DNA of 64,000 nt, taken from Ceratotherium simum simum (taxonomy: Eukaryota > Chordata > Mammalia > Perissodactyla > Rhinocerotidae). A program made the translations under genes and the position numbers. The notes beneath the pieces are model-generated. The model made no database searches. It worked only from the letters and a program-made list of their open reading frames with translations, and was not told where the DNA came from. Shown in pieces: positions 5,719 through 64,000 of the stretch. Each line of letters begins with the position of its first letter. Position 1 is the first letter of the stretch. The stretch covers positions 18,702,736 to 18,766,735 of the forward strand of contig NW_004454170.1 in the NCBI RefSeq assembly GCF_000283155.1. The letters run 5' to 3'.

Positions 5719-7199
5719 AAAAATGTTTGGAGTCATATTCTTGCTTTAATACAAATTCCGCTTTAACACACAGAGGGATAATAGAGGTAAAGATTTTGCA
5801 AATGCAAGATGATGTGTTTTGTTAAAGCATCGTAATCATAATATTAAGAGTATTGTAATAGAGTAGTTGATTTAAAATAACTATTAATAGTGATTAAAAA
5901 CGAACAGGCTTTATGTTAGTGAATCATAAAGAGTTCATTGGTTGAACATTTCTTGAGTGCTTATTATGTACTAGGCATACAAAAGGTAATAAAAGAAGAA
6001 GAATTTACATTTGGGTCCCTAAAGACTACAATTTGATTAGAGAGTAATTTAAAATAGTCGTCCTTTCTCTGTTTCACCCAAATACCTATTCTTTAGACAC
6101 ATCAAGGTACTTAGACGTGTGAACAATTCAGAATTGAGGAAAATTCTTGATGTCTTTTTAAAGCCTGCTCCTTTTCTCTAGTGCTCTTGGAAGACAGAAA
6201 AGATAATGGGATTAGAAGACAACCTGGTTGTCCTCTTGTCTTTCTATTCCCCACTTGCAAATCAATTTTGTGATTGGAGTCATGGTTCTTATGTTCCTGT
6301 CCCTGCTCTAATTGATTTCTGGGTGGACATGCTCTAAGTTGAGAGATGAAAAATCTCAATATTTCACATTAAACACATGAACACTTCAACCCACAGCATC
6401 TGAACTCCAAAGCCCCAAATTAGACATGGTGATCTGAGGAAGATGGCAAACAAGAAACAGAGGGTGGGGTGGGAGGTAACCCTATCATGCTTGTAATTGT
6501 AAAGAGCCATTTATAAGTAAGCATGATTTTAATTGGTTTGATCAATTTTTATTGGAAATAGCTAAGTAGTAATTATAATCTCTGAAAAATGTTTGTAAAC
6601 ATATAGATAGTATTCACAGAGAATACAAGTAAATACTATTTCTTATTACAAAAGTAATATCAATATATTTTAAAAATTTTTACAAAATGCAAATAGTATA
6701 AAGAAAAATATTTCAGTCATCCATGATCTTAGCCTCGAGATAATCTCTGTTACCACTTCTGATACTTTCCTTATTTTTTTTACAGGTAGATAACACATTT
6801 TAAAAACAAAAATGAGATCATACTATACATAGTTTTATAATCTACTTTATTTACTTATCATGAATATCTTCTCATATCCATAGATATTCTTCTTTAATGT
6901 AATTTCTAATGGCTGCCTAGTATTCTGTCATATAAGTATATCATATTGTAGCCATTCTACTGTTAAGATGTTTGTTCTCTTTTGCAATTTATAAGCTAGA
7001 TTGTAAACTCCATGAAAGCAAAGACTATAACTGATTTATTTATCATTATGTCCCTGGTATGTAGTAGACTTTCAGAAAATAGGTATTTAAATTAATTCTC
7101 CTACTCTTCCATGTCTGTACCTATACAGCTAAACATGACAGTAGAAAAATACACAGCTGTGCTCACTTCAGGTTTATAATCACTAATCTCAAGTGGGCC

Positions 7200-9308: not shown

Positions 9309-12300
9309 TTCCTAGGTCATGGTGAGAGTTTTGGACTTTAAGAGCAGTGGGAAACCATTGAAGGGTGTTAAACCAAGGTAGTGATATGATCTAATTTAAT
9401 TTTTGAAAAGGTCGCTCTACCTGCTGTCTGAAGAATGGACTGAAGTGGGCCGGCAGTGGGAGGGGGAGAGGGACAAATATGAAGTCACTGTATTAGTCCA
9501 GGAAAGGCATGATGGAGGTTTGTACTGAGGTGGTGTATTAGATAGTTAGCAGGGGTTCTAAGCCAAGATAGACCCCACATCCACCAGTACGGATCTCTTC
9601 TCCTTGCTCCTGAGCTATGTCTCCTGGAGAGAAGATAGCTCCTAGACGGCGGGGCAAGCTGTCACATGAACTCCTGCAAGGACTCCAGTCTCACGCTGCC
9701 CTGATGGCAGGTTCTGAATGGTTTCTGTCTGAAGTCCTTCTGAATAAACTGACGCCAGGTGTATTCAGTGGTAGCCTTAGGAGTCTAAATGATTATATGA
9801 ACCTAAGAAGACCACCTTGTGGGCACAGCACATACATTATCCATTCTTTAGTTTCAACTGCTCACTTATACTGTGCCTGTTTTATTCCAGTCCCCTTCTC
9901 TCAGCAATTTTAGTAACATGTTGAAGTCAATGCAGTCACCTTAGCTTCAGTTCCCAAAGCAAACTTGTTCTGGAGACCATTTGTGTAGATGTGAATTTGC
10001 TCAGTTGCCTTAAAAGGGATGAGTAATCAATAAGTGCTGCCTTTGATTATTTTCCTTTTAGTCATTTTCTTGTCATGTTCCACTGTTTTGTGGAGGATTA
10101 GACAAGTGTCCAGAGACAGAAAGAGAGCAAGTGAAACAGTGACATCCTACTTAGCCAGAAGCTTGTTACCCAGCATTCTCAAGTCTCTAGAAAGTGATTT
10201 TCAAACTCTGCACTTTGGGGGCCCCTTCTGGTGATGCTGCTGGCAACTGGTGGAGAGGCAAGGATGCCAAGTGTTCAAGGGCTCAAGGTTGCTCCCCTTC
10301 TCAGCCGAAGCAGTGCCGCTTTTATATTTGTCTCAATTACTTGTCACTCCAGATTCCATTTGCACAGAAGCTTCCGTAGTGTAAGAAATATACATATATT
10401 GAAGGTTACTTATCGGGAATATAGTTCAAAACCCAGATAAGATAAAATACACTGATCTGTGATAAAGCTTACCACAGACCATGTTGTGAGACCATCACTC
10501 AAAGACTATTTCCTAATTTTAGACACAACTTAAGGAACTTACTTGTCTGATTACCAGCTCTCAGCAGAAGTAGCGAATGTCAGGAGTTTAGGCACACTGA
10601 CAGTAATAAAGGATATTTGATAATCCTATAACGAAGAAAAGCTGTGAAAAAAAAGGCTAAAATAAACTCAACAAAAAGCAAAAGTAGTCCGGGGCTGTTT
10701 AGTGAAGGCCAAATAGCTTTATATACCTTGATGAAGACCCTGTGAAGGCATCATTTATATTATAGCATGTACAATATATGATGTTTTTGCTCACTCATAT
10801 TCCCAGACTTTTACTTGGTGCCAGACATAGAGGGAAATCATCAGTTTATGATGTTAACTCTGAATCATCAAGAAAAGGTTAAATCGTCTTCCATGTTCTC
10901 CATGTAGAATGATAAGGAGAGGTAAGATACTTGGGAAGGTTTATATGGGTGATGTGTTTAATGTTTGTGTGCTCAAAGGGCAATGTTGCCATTCTTTGAA
11001 AAAGCTGCTGACAGGTTTTTCACTCTCTAAAGATACCAATTAAGTGAGATGTTACTATATCTACCTTTTTTTTCTTTTCAAGAAGGAAAGGAATATGCCT
11101 GTAACCTTCAGCTGAAGGCTTAACTCAGGTGTCTAGAAAAATTCTTAGAAGAATAATCATAACATACATTTGCAAACATCCAAATTGTCAGATTAGTTTA
11201 ATCATATTCTATTATAAAGTTACAGATCTTATAGATAAAGAGAGGCAATACATTCCAAGCTTAGAAATAATATTAAAAGTTATTCAAAATTATATTAACT
11301 GATAATTTTTATCACTACTTTTAATTCCTCACAACCAATTTTCTTGAGTGCCTCCTATATCATATATTCACTTCAAGTACTATTTTTAAAATAAAATTTA
11401 TATTTTAAATACCAAATTACTGGGTAAGAATAAAATCTCTCATTAGCCACATGGGAAAATCCATCCCCCTGTGCAGCTCTGTTATTACTCTTTAATGGTT
11501 TGTGCTGCCTTACTACTGTATCTGCAGAACTAATATTGGTAGAGATGGTAGATCAACTCTGATTTGAATAATAGTATCAATATCTCTATGGTCACAAAAA
11601 AGAAATTGAGTAACACTCAGGAGAATTCTGTGCTCATAGAGAACATCTAGGAAGCATGTTATTTCCATGACTGCAAAATATGTATGTATCTTGACTTGGA
11701 ATTATGGCTCTTGATTCAGTTTAATAAAATGCATTTAGCAGTAGAAAAAGAAAGCAGGACTTGGCTACAGAGTTCTGTGCACGAGAAACAGCGGTGTTAT
11801 CAGTGGCTTAATGTTAAAGGGATAAAATAAACAATGTTTCCTATGTATCAGTTCTGAGCAAAATATTTAATTATTCATCAGTACTTCATTTTGTAGAATA
11901 AAAAAGTATACTTGTAATGTTTGATAGGGTACTCAGTCTGGAGATAGAAGAAAAACAAGTCCTTAAAGAAAATAATTACTAATAAAATGGAGACATAAAA
12001 ATAAAGGATTAGTGCAGAATACATGTGGGGAGAGAAATAATCTGTATAAATTCAAGAGAGATCAACTTGTTCTGTGCACATATCGAAGAAAAAAGAATCT
12101 AGAAGTCAAACTGACGATAGTAGTGATTTTGCACTTAGTTAACTGTAAACCAAGTCTCCTGTTCATGATTTTTTAGGCCCTCATTGGATGATTACGTCTG
12201 GCATTATACTCTGCACTGTACAAAATGTGTGGGGACTTTTTTTTTTAGAAGTTAAGGTAAAAGAAAAAAGGTAGGTCAAGGGATTAAAGAATAAACTGAT

Positions 12301-43450: not shown

Positions 43451-44207
43451 TGTGTGAAATGCTTATTTTTGCCTTTAGCCCAGTTGTCTCAGCACTGTCT
43501 AATTAATGGATCTTTGTTTCCCACTGATCGGCGATGCCAGCGTTGTCTTAAATCAAGTTTCCACATACGTGGAAAAGATCAGACACTGTTTTAGCCCTTT
43601 GGTCTGTTTGTTCATCCTGGAGGCAGCACCATACCATCTTCTTAATAAGTCTCCATGTCTATAGGTCCTTTTCCCTTCCCTGTGCCTTGTGTGATTGGTG
43701 CCATTTTTATTTAAAAAAAAAAAAAAAATCTGTAGAGGGATGGCTGATTACTAGGCCAGCTTTTTTTTTTTCATTTACAAATGTTAAAGTTCAGTTAGTT
43801 ATCCACTTACCCCCTCTTCAAAGATAAAACAAATATTTTATTTGACATTTATAATATTTTTAACCTTTTGACAGCCTACAAACCTATCATTATTCTGATC
43901 AAAGTAAAATACATACTTGAACTCTCTTTTTGTTCTTTTCCTTCATCCCATCCTTAAGAATAGAGTCCAAAAGCCTCACAATTTAAAAAATGTATTTGTT
44001 TGTTTGTTTGCTTCTAGGCAACCAAAAAGGTAAATTTGATTTTCCTGGCACTTGCCAATTCGCTGTCAAGGCACAGTTCTCATCACCTTGCCGCCACTGG
44101 TGCTCAGGATTCCTTATTGCGCCTTCCTTGCCTTTCCTGCTGAAGTATTGTGCTTTATCGTTGTCTCATGGTGACCTGGTTTTCATATTTGTCCCTTTTC
44201 CTGTCAG

Positions 44208-44362
44208 CTGCTGCCTGTGAATTTTTGGATATCGTGGAGCTGCTGCTCCAGTCTGGCGCTGACCCCACTCTCCGAGACCAGGACGGCTGCCTGCCAGAGG
44301 AGGTGACAGGTTGCAAAGCGGTTTCTTTGGTGTTGCAGCGGCACATGACTGGCAAGGCTTAA
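44208..44362 (+). CDS. ACBD6: ACBD6 last coding exon (ankyrin repeat and C-terminus)
   Basis: The exon begins after a CCTTTTCCTGTCAG acceptor and completes the split Ala codon left by the 31-nt exon. It then encodes 50 residues, from AACEFLDIVELLLQ to LQRHMTGKA, and a TAA stop at 44360-44362. LDIVELLLQSGADPTLRDQDG is a textbook ankyrin-repeat helix pair and hairpin, followed by a short C-terminal tail. The exon is the 3' end of ACBD6, an acyl-CoA-binding protein whose ankyrin repeats are thought to mediate protein contacts. The preceding intron is 27.3 kb long and interrupts an ankyrin repeat. Other frames open across this exon on both strands, but only this frame shows protein-family similarity. 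No frameshift or early stop is seen. Confidence 0.95.
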
Positions 44363-49434: not shown

Positions 49435-49758
49435 GGGCCGGCCCTGTGGCTTGGTGGTTAAGTGCGTGCGCTGCGATGCTGGTGGCCCAGGTTCGGATCC
49501 CGGGTGCGCATCGAGGCACCACTTCTCCGTTCATCCTGAGGCCGAGTCCCGCATACAGCAACNNNNNNNNNNNNNNNNNNNNNNNNNNNNNNNNNNNNNN
49601 NNNNNNNNNNNNNNNNNNNNNNNNNNNNNNNNNNNNNNNNNNNNNNNNNNNNNNNNNNNNNNCAGCAACTAGAAGGATGTGCAGCTACGACATACAACTA
49701 TCCACTGGGGCTTTGGGGGGAAAAATAAAATAAATAAAATCTTTAAAAAAAAATAAAT
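49435..49758 (+). mobile_element. ERE SINE interrupted by assembly gap
   Basis: The head GGGCCGGCCCTGTGGCTTGG and the CAGCAACTAGAAGGATGTGC body lie on either side of a 100-N gap. It has a single-module form with an (AATAA)-rich tail. AAATATGAGTGAATTTCA is repeated exactly at 49417-49434 and 49759-49776, so the gap is entirely within the SINE. Confidence 0.93.
49563..49662. other. Assembly gap (100 N)
   Basis: Exactly 100 N, the conventional placeholder for a gap of unknown size. It sits inside an ERE SINE. The 7 bases before the gap and the 7 after are the same (CAGCAAC), so the real gap may be zero or negative. Confidence 0.98.
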
Positions 49759-57600: not shown

Positions 57601-59011
57601 AAGTGGTTCATGGCCCAGCAGTCTTTCTCCCGCGTATTGTAAGCAGCCTGCTAAGAACTGTGTGTTTGAGAAACTGTCCTCAGAAAAGACAGTTCCTTTT
57701 TCCTTTCCTTCATGTGGCTTGCTATCTTGCATTTGTGTCTCCATCCCCACCCCCAACGTTCACATTATTGAGGAATTCTCAATAGTACAGAATTGGCTTA
57801 ACACACCATCATCTACACCTGGAACCTCGAGAAAAAAGTCTACATTTGCAGGCTCCCCAAGCAAAAATCACGACAGTTGCAGCACACCAAAAAATAAGGG
57901 TACACTACAAAATTGATCAGAGAAAAGATGGTCCAAAGGCTGATCCCAGGAATTTGCTGACTAGATATTTTAAAGAAGCTTAAGTGACCTTAGTTTAGTC
58001 CTGGAAAAGAGTTTACAAAAGATGCAGCAGCCAGAGGCTGCTACCACATGCATGAATCTTTTCAGTCCTCAAAAGGTGACAAACCATTCGCAGAAGGAAG
58101 GGTCCATAGGGACTTTGGCCCCATCACTTCATATGAAGAAAGGCAGTGCCTTGTTACCCTTTCCTACTCTGCTGATCTTGTCTAAGAGAATGGGAGGCCA
58201 GAAGAGGCAAAGCACTGTTTCTCCAGGGGAGTGGAACAAATTCCACCTGGCTAAATTCCAGTGTGCACAGGGAGCACTTCCTGATGGACAGGTGTGTTGT
58301 GCATAAAGTGGGAGTCACAACACCATTCACGATGGCATTTCCCACAGAAGTGCAGTCTGTCGCAGGGGTGGCAGCTCATAAAGCAGGGGGTGGCCTTTCG
58401 GGCTTGGTGATGTGCTGTTACAAACCCGCAAGCCGAGAGTCTCCGCACTGCCTTTAAGGGCTGGAGAGCTCTGTCCTGAGCGCAGGACCGGAGCACCACA
58501 GGGCCTGGCAGGAGTCTAGCCAGCAACCCAGAGAGATGCAGCCCAAGGACCACTTGGAACACTTTGGACAATTTTAGGGCTGCACCCTAAATTATTCCTT
58601 CCAACCAAGATAGGCAAAAAAGCATTGCTAGTACTTGGATGAGACCAAGACTATACTCCAATGAGCAAGCTAGCACAGCAGAGAAAGCTCTCATTTGTAA
58701 AGGGCTGGGGAGGGTTGGCTGCAGGTGGAGGTGGGCTACAAACTCATCTAAACCAACTCCCTCAAAACAGTCTCACACTATCCTTTCACCCTACAGGATG
58801 GGGAATGCTGGGAGACTGGTATCTGCTGATTCGGCTAAAGAGACTGCAAGTCTGGAATCCAAATGTGTCTACAAACATTTTCACTGATTGTCGTTCTGTT
58901 CTCTCCATATTTTAGCTTTGATCATTTTGTAACCCACAGCCTGTCTTCTGGAATAAATGATACGAGCAAATTAAAAAGGCACATTGTGCACTGGGGGGAC
59001 TCGTTGGGCAG

Positions 59012-59077
59012 TCGCTGTGATGGTCCAGGGCCACTCAGCTCCAGCCTCAGAGTCACCTGCAATGAAAACCACTTCTT
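59012..59077 (-). pseudogene. Relic of LHX4 intron 3/exon 4 junction
   Basis: These 66 bp align to 63017-63085, the end of LHX4 intron 3 plus the first 48 bp of exon 4, in the same orientation. I count 58 identities, 8 mismatches and one 3-bp gap. On the - strand it still has a TTTTCATTGCAG-like acceptor followed by a frame reading DSEAGAEWPWTITA where exon 4 has [15 protein letters not shown]. Four mismatches are CpG-to-CpA/TpG changes, as expected for a methylated, unconstrained copy. The similarity stops sharply on both sides, so no full homeodomain is present. It lies about 700 bp past the LHX4 stop, possibly within the 3' UTR. Confidence 0.75.
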
Positions 59078-59274
59078 GCCATCAGGGATTCAGTGACATG
59101 GATGGGATTTCTTAAAAACAAAAACTGACAGATAGTCTCTGGCTTGTATTTCTGGGTAGGGAGGAAGTCTTACTTTCCACAGGAAAAAAAAAAAAAAGGA
59201 GGGAGCATGTTTTCAGTATCAAACTGGCCATCAAAGTTTTCACGGACCTTTAATAAGTGACTTTTTTATTTTGA

Positions 59275-59280
59275 AAATTA
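59275..59280 (-). terminator. Candidate proximal polyadenylation signal of LHX4
   Basis: The - strand reads AATAAA here, the nearest canonical hexamer I found after the LHX4 stop, about 480 nt downstream. Use is unproven. Confidence 0.4.
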
Positions 59281-59759
59281 GGGTTCAATAACGGTGGTCC
59301 AGAAATCACTTTTGTTATACTCAAGGGCTGGGATGCCTCTACTTCAGAAATCTCAGTTCTGGCGACAGCAGTGTTCGGGAGGCATCTCACGAGACATACC
59401 AGTCAGAGCAGAGTTCCCAAAGGCCAAGGTGGTCTGACAGTCACCTCGTGTTACCAAGCACCGAGCAGCCAAAGCCTGTAAGCAGGGCAGGGGAGGGAGC
59501 CAACAAGCCAGCACCCTAGCGCTCTAGGCTCTGCACCCCTGTGCTGTGTTCTAAGAGGAGGCTGCTCTCCCACCACTTCCCTGGGAAAACAATGCCCTAA
59601 TGCGGTCTCGCGACCTCCTATGGATCAGCAAAGGACTTCCATTGAAAATAATGGAAATTCACATTGGTGCACTTTTGATCCTTAAAAGGAAAGTCTCTTT
59701 TGATCCTTGAAGACATTCTCTCAAGCCAGAAGGACTGGTAGGTTGGGAAGGAGAGATGT

Positions 59760-60176
<417 letters not shown>

Positions 60177-61595: not shown

Positions 61596-61597
61596 AC

Positions 61598-61645
61598 CCC
61601 CAGCTCAGTACTCTTCCTCCCCCCAGCTCAGTACTCTTCCTCCCC
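61598..61645. repeat. 23-bp tandem duplication
   Basis: CAGCTCAGTACTCTTCCTCC occurs at 61601 and again at 61624 with flanking C runs, a direct repeat of period 23 in LHX4 intron 5. Confidence 0.9.
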
Positions 61646-62288
61646 CCCTCCACAACAGAAGACCTTCCACATTTGAGGACTCAATAAAGGAGAACAGTTA
61701 CGGCTATTTGCAAACAACCTGAAGACCCAAAACATGCAGTAATTTGCAATTTTGCTGATGCACAAATTTGAATGTAGCACATGCGCAAAGCTTAGGTGCA
61801 GGGGACAGGATGAAGTGAGCGGTGGGGGAAGGGATTTCAGAAATGAGCCCAGTCCCCACCTCGCGTGCACTCACAGTATTGAGTTCCCAGGGCAAAGGGC
61901 CTGCCGAGCATGTCCTCCCCACCCACAAGGGGAGAAAGGGGTCACTCTAGGGGACCACAGGAGGGAGACCAGTGCCCCTCCGAAGGGGAGAAATGCAAAA
62001 GAGGGGCCAGGGACACAAGGCTAAGACAGCTACCCGTTCACAGCTGCAAGGGCTGGTGAGGGAGCCCCCAGTCAGCAGGAGAGGAGGGGAGGCCTCGGGG
62101 CCCGCGGTCCCAGGGAACCCAGCTTCTACGTCTCAGCAGCAGAGCTCTCTTGCTCTCTACTTCTTGTCCCATCTTGAAGGGTCACTACCATTTCCCCTAT
62201 CCTTTACTGCAAGTCGCAGGGAAGAGCCTGTGTTCAGGAGGGAGTTGTCAAGGCCTCAAGAAAGATCCCTCCTGAGTGTCAAGGATTA

Positions 62289-64000
<1,712 letters not shown>

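Follow-up and report, generated by a model that had tools for sequence, protein, structure and literature searches.

A decayed local copy of the LHX4 intron 3/exon 4 junction downstream of the LHX4 stop codon in Ceratotherium simum simum

The 'doublets' of Thomas et al. 2004 are reportedly pairs of identical sequences, 25-100 bases long, that often lie about 1 kb from each other and preferentially on the same strand. They are said to have many attributes in common with a class of proximal duplications, 50-619 bases long and within 5 kb of their donors, of which 824 were collected in human and which Pace et al. 2009 (PMC2671141) attribute to synthesis-dependent strand annealing. In that collection 753 of the 824 lie under 3 kb apart, the median insert measures 147 bases, four donors are partial exon/intron sequences, two acceptors lie in a 3' UTR, and none of the 39 proximal pairs inspected carries a tail. 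The class is found also in dog, cow, mouse and rat, with a density outside primates of 0.18-0.26 per Mb of transposon DNA, a count limited to recent inserts inside transposons that passed strict filters. The Discussion of the same paper treats such duplications as known raw material for new exons (PMC2671141).

We analysed a 64,000-base stretch of the Ceratotherium simum simum genome (hereafter the window), in which LHX4 lies on the minus strand and a short relic of one of its own splice junctions sits past the stop codon. The event appears to belong to a kind that is already known, of which the relic is a further, decayed example: with a probability of roughly 0.84, we consider it a local repair-mediated copy of the LHX4 junction that has since decayed without function. 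The features on which the argument draws are as follows.

44207-44359, converging on LHX4 from the left: last coding stretch of ACBD6
62910..63064, minus strand: LHX4 exon 4, covering positions 1 to 46 of the homeodomain profile, which has 57 (Pfam PF00046, E 4e-12; PDB 5hod, LHX4 homeodomain, E 9.4e-26; donor site read from the sequence)
about 62345..62516, minus strand: LHX4 exon 5, with the end of the homeodomain and what follows it (limits taken from the sequence)
59760..60154, minus strand: coding portion of LHX4 exon 6, ending in the stop codon (59760-59762; from the sequence)
59265-59270 and 59249-59254, minus strand: AATAAA and ATTAAA, two putative poly(A) signals of canonical sequence located past the stop codon and ahead of the relic (hexamer scan)
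63017..63085, minus strand: donor stretch, made up of the final 21 bases of intron 3 (63065-63085) together with the first 48 of exon 4 (63017-63064)
59012..59077, minus strand: relic, a decayed copy of the intron 3/exon 4 junction (alignment, blastn, shuffles, genome search)
59012-59056, minus strand: exon-derived part of the relic, 45 bases
59057-59077, minus strand: intron-derived part of the relic, 21 bases
59057..59058, minus strand: AG of the copied acceptor, which forms AGGT together with the two bases that follow, in formal terms both an acceptor and a donor site

The nearest solved chain to the exon 4 homeodomain is that of LHX4 itself (5hod). Outside the window a search located stretches of exons 3 and 1 but not exon 2.

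A sequence-only reading of this DNA had reported 58 identities among 66 aligned bases with a 3-bp gap, and pairwise alignment of 58900-59150 with 62900-63200 reproduced the match exactly: 59012-59077 pairs with 63017-63085 on the same strand, with 58 of 66 aligned bases identical, eight mismatches, one 3-base gap and a score of 83. A chance origin is excluded, as the highest score among 1000 dinucleotide shuffles was 28; the blastn E-value of the pair within the 64-kb window is 2.4e-15, and for the 500 bases surrounding the relic the next-best partner reaches only E 0.09. The anatomy proposed in that reading, about 20 bp of intron with the acceptor AG followed by about 48 bp of exon 4, agrees with the 21 intronic and 48 exonic bases of the donor, of which the relic retains an exonic part of 45. 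Relic and donor are separated by 3,940 bases (about 3.9 kb).

When the 191 bases around the relic were sought in the 2.45-Gb genome, two matches were obtained, the relic itself and exon 4, and the relic is therefore no common repeat; this removes the explanation by a repeat present at many loci that the sequence-only reading had raised against itself, in a search that skips very common words and gives lower bounds for large families. An interspersed repeat family would have many copies; the relic has two places genome-wide, by the same lower-bound count. The interval from the relic to the stop codon (59078-59760) matches nothing but itself. The 281 bases around exon 4 map to five genomic places, namely exon 4 itself, the relic and three other loci, which from their alignment and from what is known of the family we take to be LHX3 and other LIM-homeobox genes. 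Derivation of the relic from one of these related loci was rejected, since it scores at most 25 against the three and 83 against LHX4 exon 4. Among viral contigs the relic core found nothing and a degenerate exon-4 pattern found seven matches; among genome contigs the core pattern produced one 21-base match, in a bacterial MAG, with surroundings that are unrelated as read. Among the LHX4 papers listed, titles and abstract openings make no mention of such a relic.

To polarise the differences, exon 4 was aligned with the LHX3-like locus as outgroup and the states were read by eye, the two intronic differences being left out of the count. Five of the six exonic substitutions, and likewise the 3-base deletion, show the exon 4 state in the LHX3-like locus, which has a third base at the sixth substitution; the relic is therefore the changed copy and exon 4 the donor. 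All six informative differences fall in the relic, and exon 4 carries the relic state at none of them. The earlier proposal of a partial local duplication inside LHX4 is supported, and its direction, from exon 4 to the relic, is now backed by an outgroup. The relic has lost four of the five donor CpGs, all by G to A on the plus strand, and the proportion of CpG changes noted before, four of the eight mismatches, was confirmed (CpG to CpA on the plus strand). Four of the six exonic substitutions change the amino acid, and two of these four lie at CpGs (read by eye). Divergence amounts to 12.1% (95% interval 5.4-22.5%), or 6.5% (1.8-15.7%) without the CpG changes. If the 2.2e-9 per year given in PMC2671141 is applied, a rate that may not be that of this species, and if the relic alone has changed, its age would be, very roughly, 30-55 million years, the intervals spanning about 8 to 100. 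The decay, which affects CpGs above all, looks neutral.

With the stop codon at 59760-59762, 682 bases lie between it and the relic, against the approximately 700 bp estimated earlier. The same estimate had placed the relic probably in the 3' UTR, which is now doubtful: on the minus strand AATAAA, ATTAAA and the variant hexamer AATACA (59145-59150) all come before the relic, and none of the eight poly(A) hexamers scanned occurs beyond it down to 57000. Because these signals precede it, the relic probably lies outside the LHX4 mRNA, past the poly(A) site that they predict.

Two other origins have to be weighed, and both turn on the ends of the copy. An older or larger duplication, with flanks decayed past recognition and 66 bases kept by constraint, would account for the fact that the surviving core is a splice junction with an exon edge, which is a piece that could be kept. 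Similarity, however, ends abruptly on both sides, the 300-base flanks scoring no better than shuffles under two scoring schemes, and a longer duplication with visible flanks was rejected on this result; moreover, the core has decayed at CpGs and amino-acid sites alike and shows no constraint. We regard this origin as unlikely. LINE-1-mediated insertion of an LHX4 pre-mRNA fragment would fit the orientation of the relic, which is in the gene's own sense, and the pre-mRNA could supply the piece of intron, but the flanks as read contain no poly(A), and the longest direct repeat common to the 40-base flanks is 5 bases long and away from the ends, so that neither the tail nor the target-site duplication of a LINE-1 retrocopy was found, although such marks could have decayed in a relic this old. 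A retrocopy was rejected on these two counts, and in PMC2671141 a tail is likewise reported for 0 of 39 inspected proximal pairs; such an insertion seems to us very unlikely.

A role for the relic after its formation was the subject of two further suggestions of the sequence-only reading, a cryptic splice acceptor and a template for gene conversion with exon 4, and neither found support. Its retained acceptor did prove correct in that the copied AG is kept, at 59057-59058 and not at 59059-59060. By a weight matrix, this acceptor scores 6.1, as compared with 3.7 for the real acceptor of exon 4, 6.4 for exon 5 and 13.1 for exon 6, and an A to G substitution at the first exon base has turned CAG/AT into CAG/GT (the slash marks the exon edge). 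The relic thus has CAG/GT at the copied acceptor, as do the dual-specific AGGT splice sites described in PMC10809524; the relic site is of this type in a formal sense, and equally strong sites are common here. Exons 3 and 5 end in phase 1, as the relic requires (read by eye), and the frame is open for 27 further residues before a stop. Readthrough LHX4 transcripts that spliced exon 3 or exon 5 to this AG would thereby acquire an alternative last exon encoding a 28-residue tail; from exon 3 the product would be a lineage-specific, LIM-only LHX4 without a homeodomain and from exon 5 an LHX4 with a new C-terminus, and either product of this 66-base repair scar would compete with the full protein. 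We hold this to be highly improbable. On the minus strand of the window its score is equalled or exceeded by 352 of 4428 AGs, a count that takes in the relic itself (at 58000-59760 ten lie above it and one equals it after rounding), and AGGT sites that reach both relic scores number 10 of 438 in the window, the relic included, and 27 of 2251 in 324 kb; the poly(A) signals stand ahead of the relic with none of the scanned hexamers after it to 57000. Furthermore, with replacements at four of the six exonic substitutions (two of the four at CpGs), the relic gives no indication of constraint on coding, although the sites are few and the test is therefore weak; coding use was rejected. As for the exchange of sequence between relic and exon 4 as gene-conversion partners, the two are neighbours with the same orientation. 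Roughly 100-200 bases are required for ectopic conversion in mammals, and the idea is implausible because the longest exact run shared by relic and donor is only 13 bases (9 within the gapped alignment). In addition, the translation of exon 4 equals human LHX4 over 53 residues, and all six informative differences lie in the relic with no relic state in exon 4, which leaves conversion with next to no credibility.

The reading that we prefer, a repair-mediated local copy, would begin with a double-strand break or a stalled fork at a site 3.9 kb downstream of exon 4. Repair synthesis on a nearby template, by synthesis-dependent strand annealing or template switching, would then have copied a piece of the LHX4 intron 3/exon 4 junction in the same orientation, after which the functionless insert would have decayed neutrally, particularly at its CpGs, with exon 4 remaining under selection. 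That there is a single donor and a single copy, their shared orientation, the direction of copying, the pattern of decay and the lack of retrotransposition marks are observed, and we infer both the repair step and the neutrality of the relic, which looks like an ordinary kind of DNA repair or copying scar with no sign of function.

The relic fits the proximal repair-mediated duplications of PMC2671141. Microhomology, filler or small deletions at the breakpoints, judged against the empty site, are the hallmarks of that route. It measures 66 bases, against a minimum of 50, and has one other genomic place, exon 4; its donor is 3.9 kb away, within the limits of more than 50 bases and less than 5 kb; and the flanks, as read, show no poly(A)/T tail and share no direct repeat of 6 or more bases within 40 bases, in keeping with the lack of tail and target-site duplication in the class, in which partial exon/intron donors are known (4 of 824). 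Unlike the published cases, which lie inside transposons of known consensus with the empty site visible, the relic is classed by length, copy number, distance and absence of a tail; compared with the typical case of the same source, its distance of 3,940 bases falls in the tail of the range and its 66 bases are fewer than the median of 147. As an example of a short local duplication the relic is clean and well polarised; it took with it a splice acceptor and the adjoining exon edge from a developmental gene, and, once dated in relatives, it might be useful as a marker of lineage. It also resembles the doublets in being a short paired local duplication on the same strand, and differs from them in being 12% diverged and 3.9 kb apart, where doublets are said to be exact and often about 1 kb apart. 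The relic seems to have stayed inert, although its class is known raw material for new exons, as the Discussion in PMC2671141 has it.

The neighbourhood was surveyed for low-copy pairs within 5 kb over 324,000 bases (23,258 of them N) of one contig. Blastn at word size 11 misses the relic pair and at word size 7 reports it, and the survey figures come from the version that lists it. Five pairs were obtained, one inverted and four direct, the relic included; the direct pairs measure 36, 66, 69 (the relic, with gaps) and 100 columns. Four direct pairs in 324 kb correspond to roughly one short direct duplication, its copies a few kb apart, for every 100 kb here. Two of the other three were sought genome-wide and have two places each: L034:1613-1712 with 6310-6409 (100 bases, 88%, 4.6 kb apart) and L035:6668-6730 with 9350-9415 (66 columns, 86%, 2.6 kb apart). 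Both are of the same kind as the relic, and the pairs of the survey may have arisen by the published route. The survey density of about four pairs in 0.3 Mb lies far above the 0.18-0.26 per Mb of transposon DNA in PMC2671141, which speaks against simply equating the two, although criteria and ages differ between the counts.

The inverted pair, at about 6830-7152 of L025 (G000:C15:18903565-18903887), is a perfect inverted repeat with arms of 139 bases and a spacer of about 46, and represents either a recent hairpin or an assembly foldback. Strong dual AGGT sites are unevenly distributed between the strands of the window (10 of 245 on the minus strand, 0 of 193 on the plus strand) and evenly at 64-324 kb (7 of 947 and 10 of 866), all of these being small numbers. 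Within LHX4, a long array of ATGGG-type pentanucleotides occupies 63670-64000 in intron 3, ahead of exon 4 by some 600 bases, and may continue past the window, beyond the end of which, after the array, 251 genome bases are N. Intron 5 contains a tandem duplication of period 23 at 61597-61647, in which 28 consecutive bases equal those 23 further on. Finally, tRNA-like SINEs are present in the window, which would fit an odd-toed ungulate, and the 100 N at 49563-49662 mark an assembly gap inside a SINE-like repeat.
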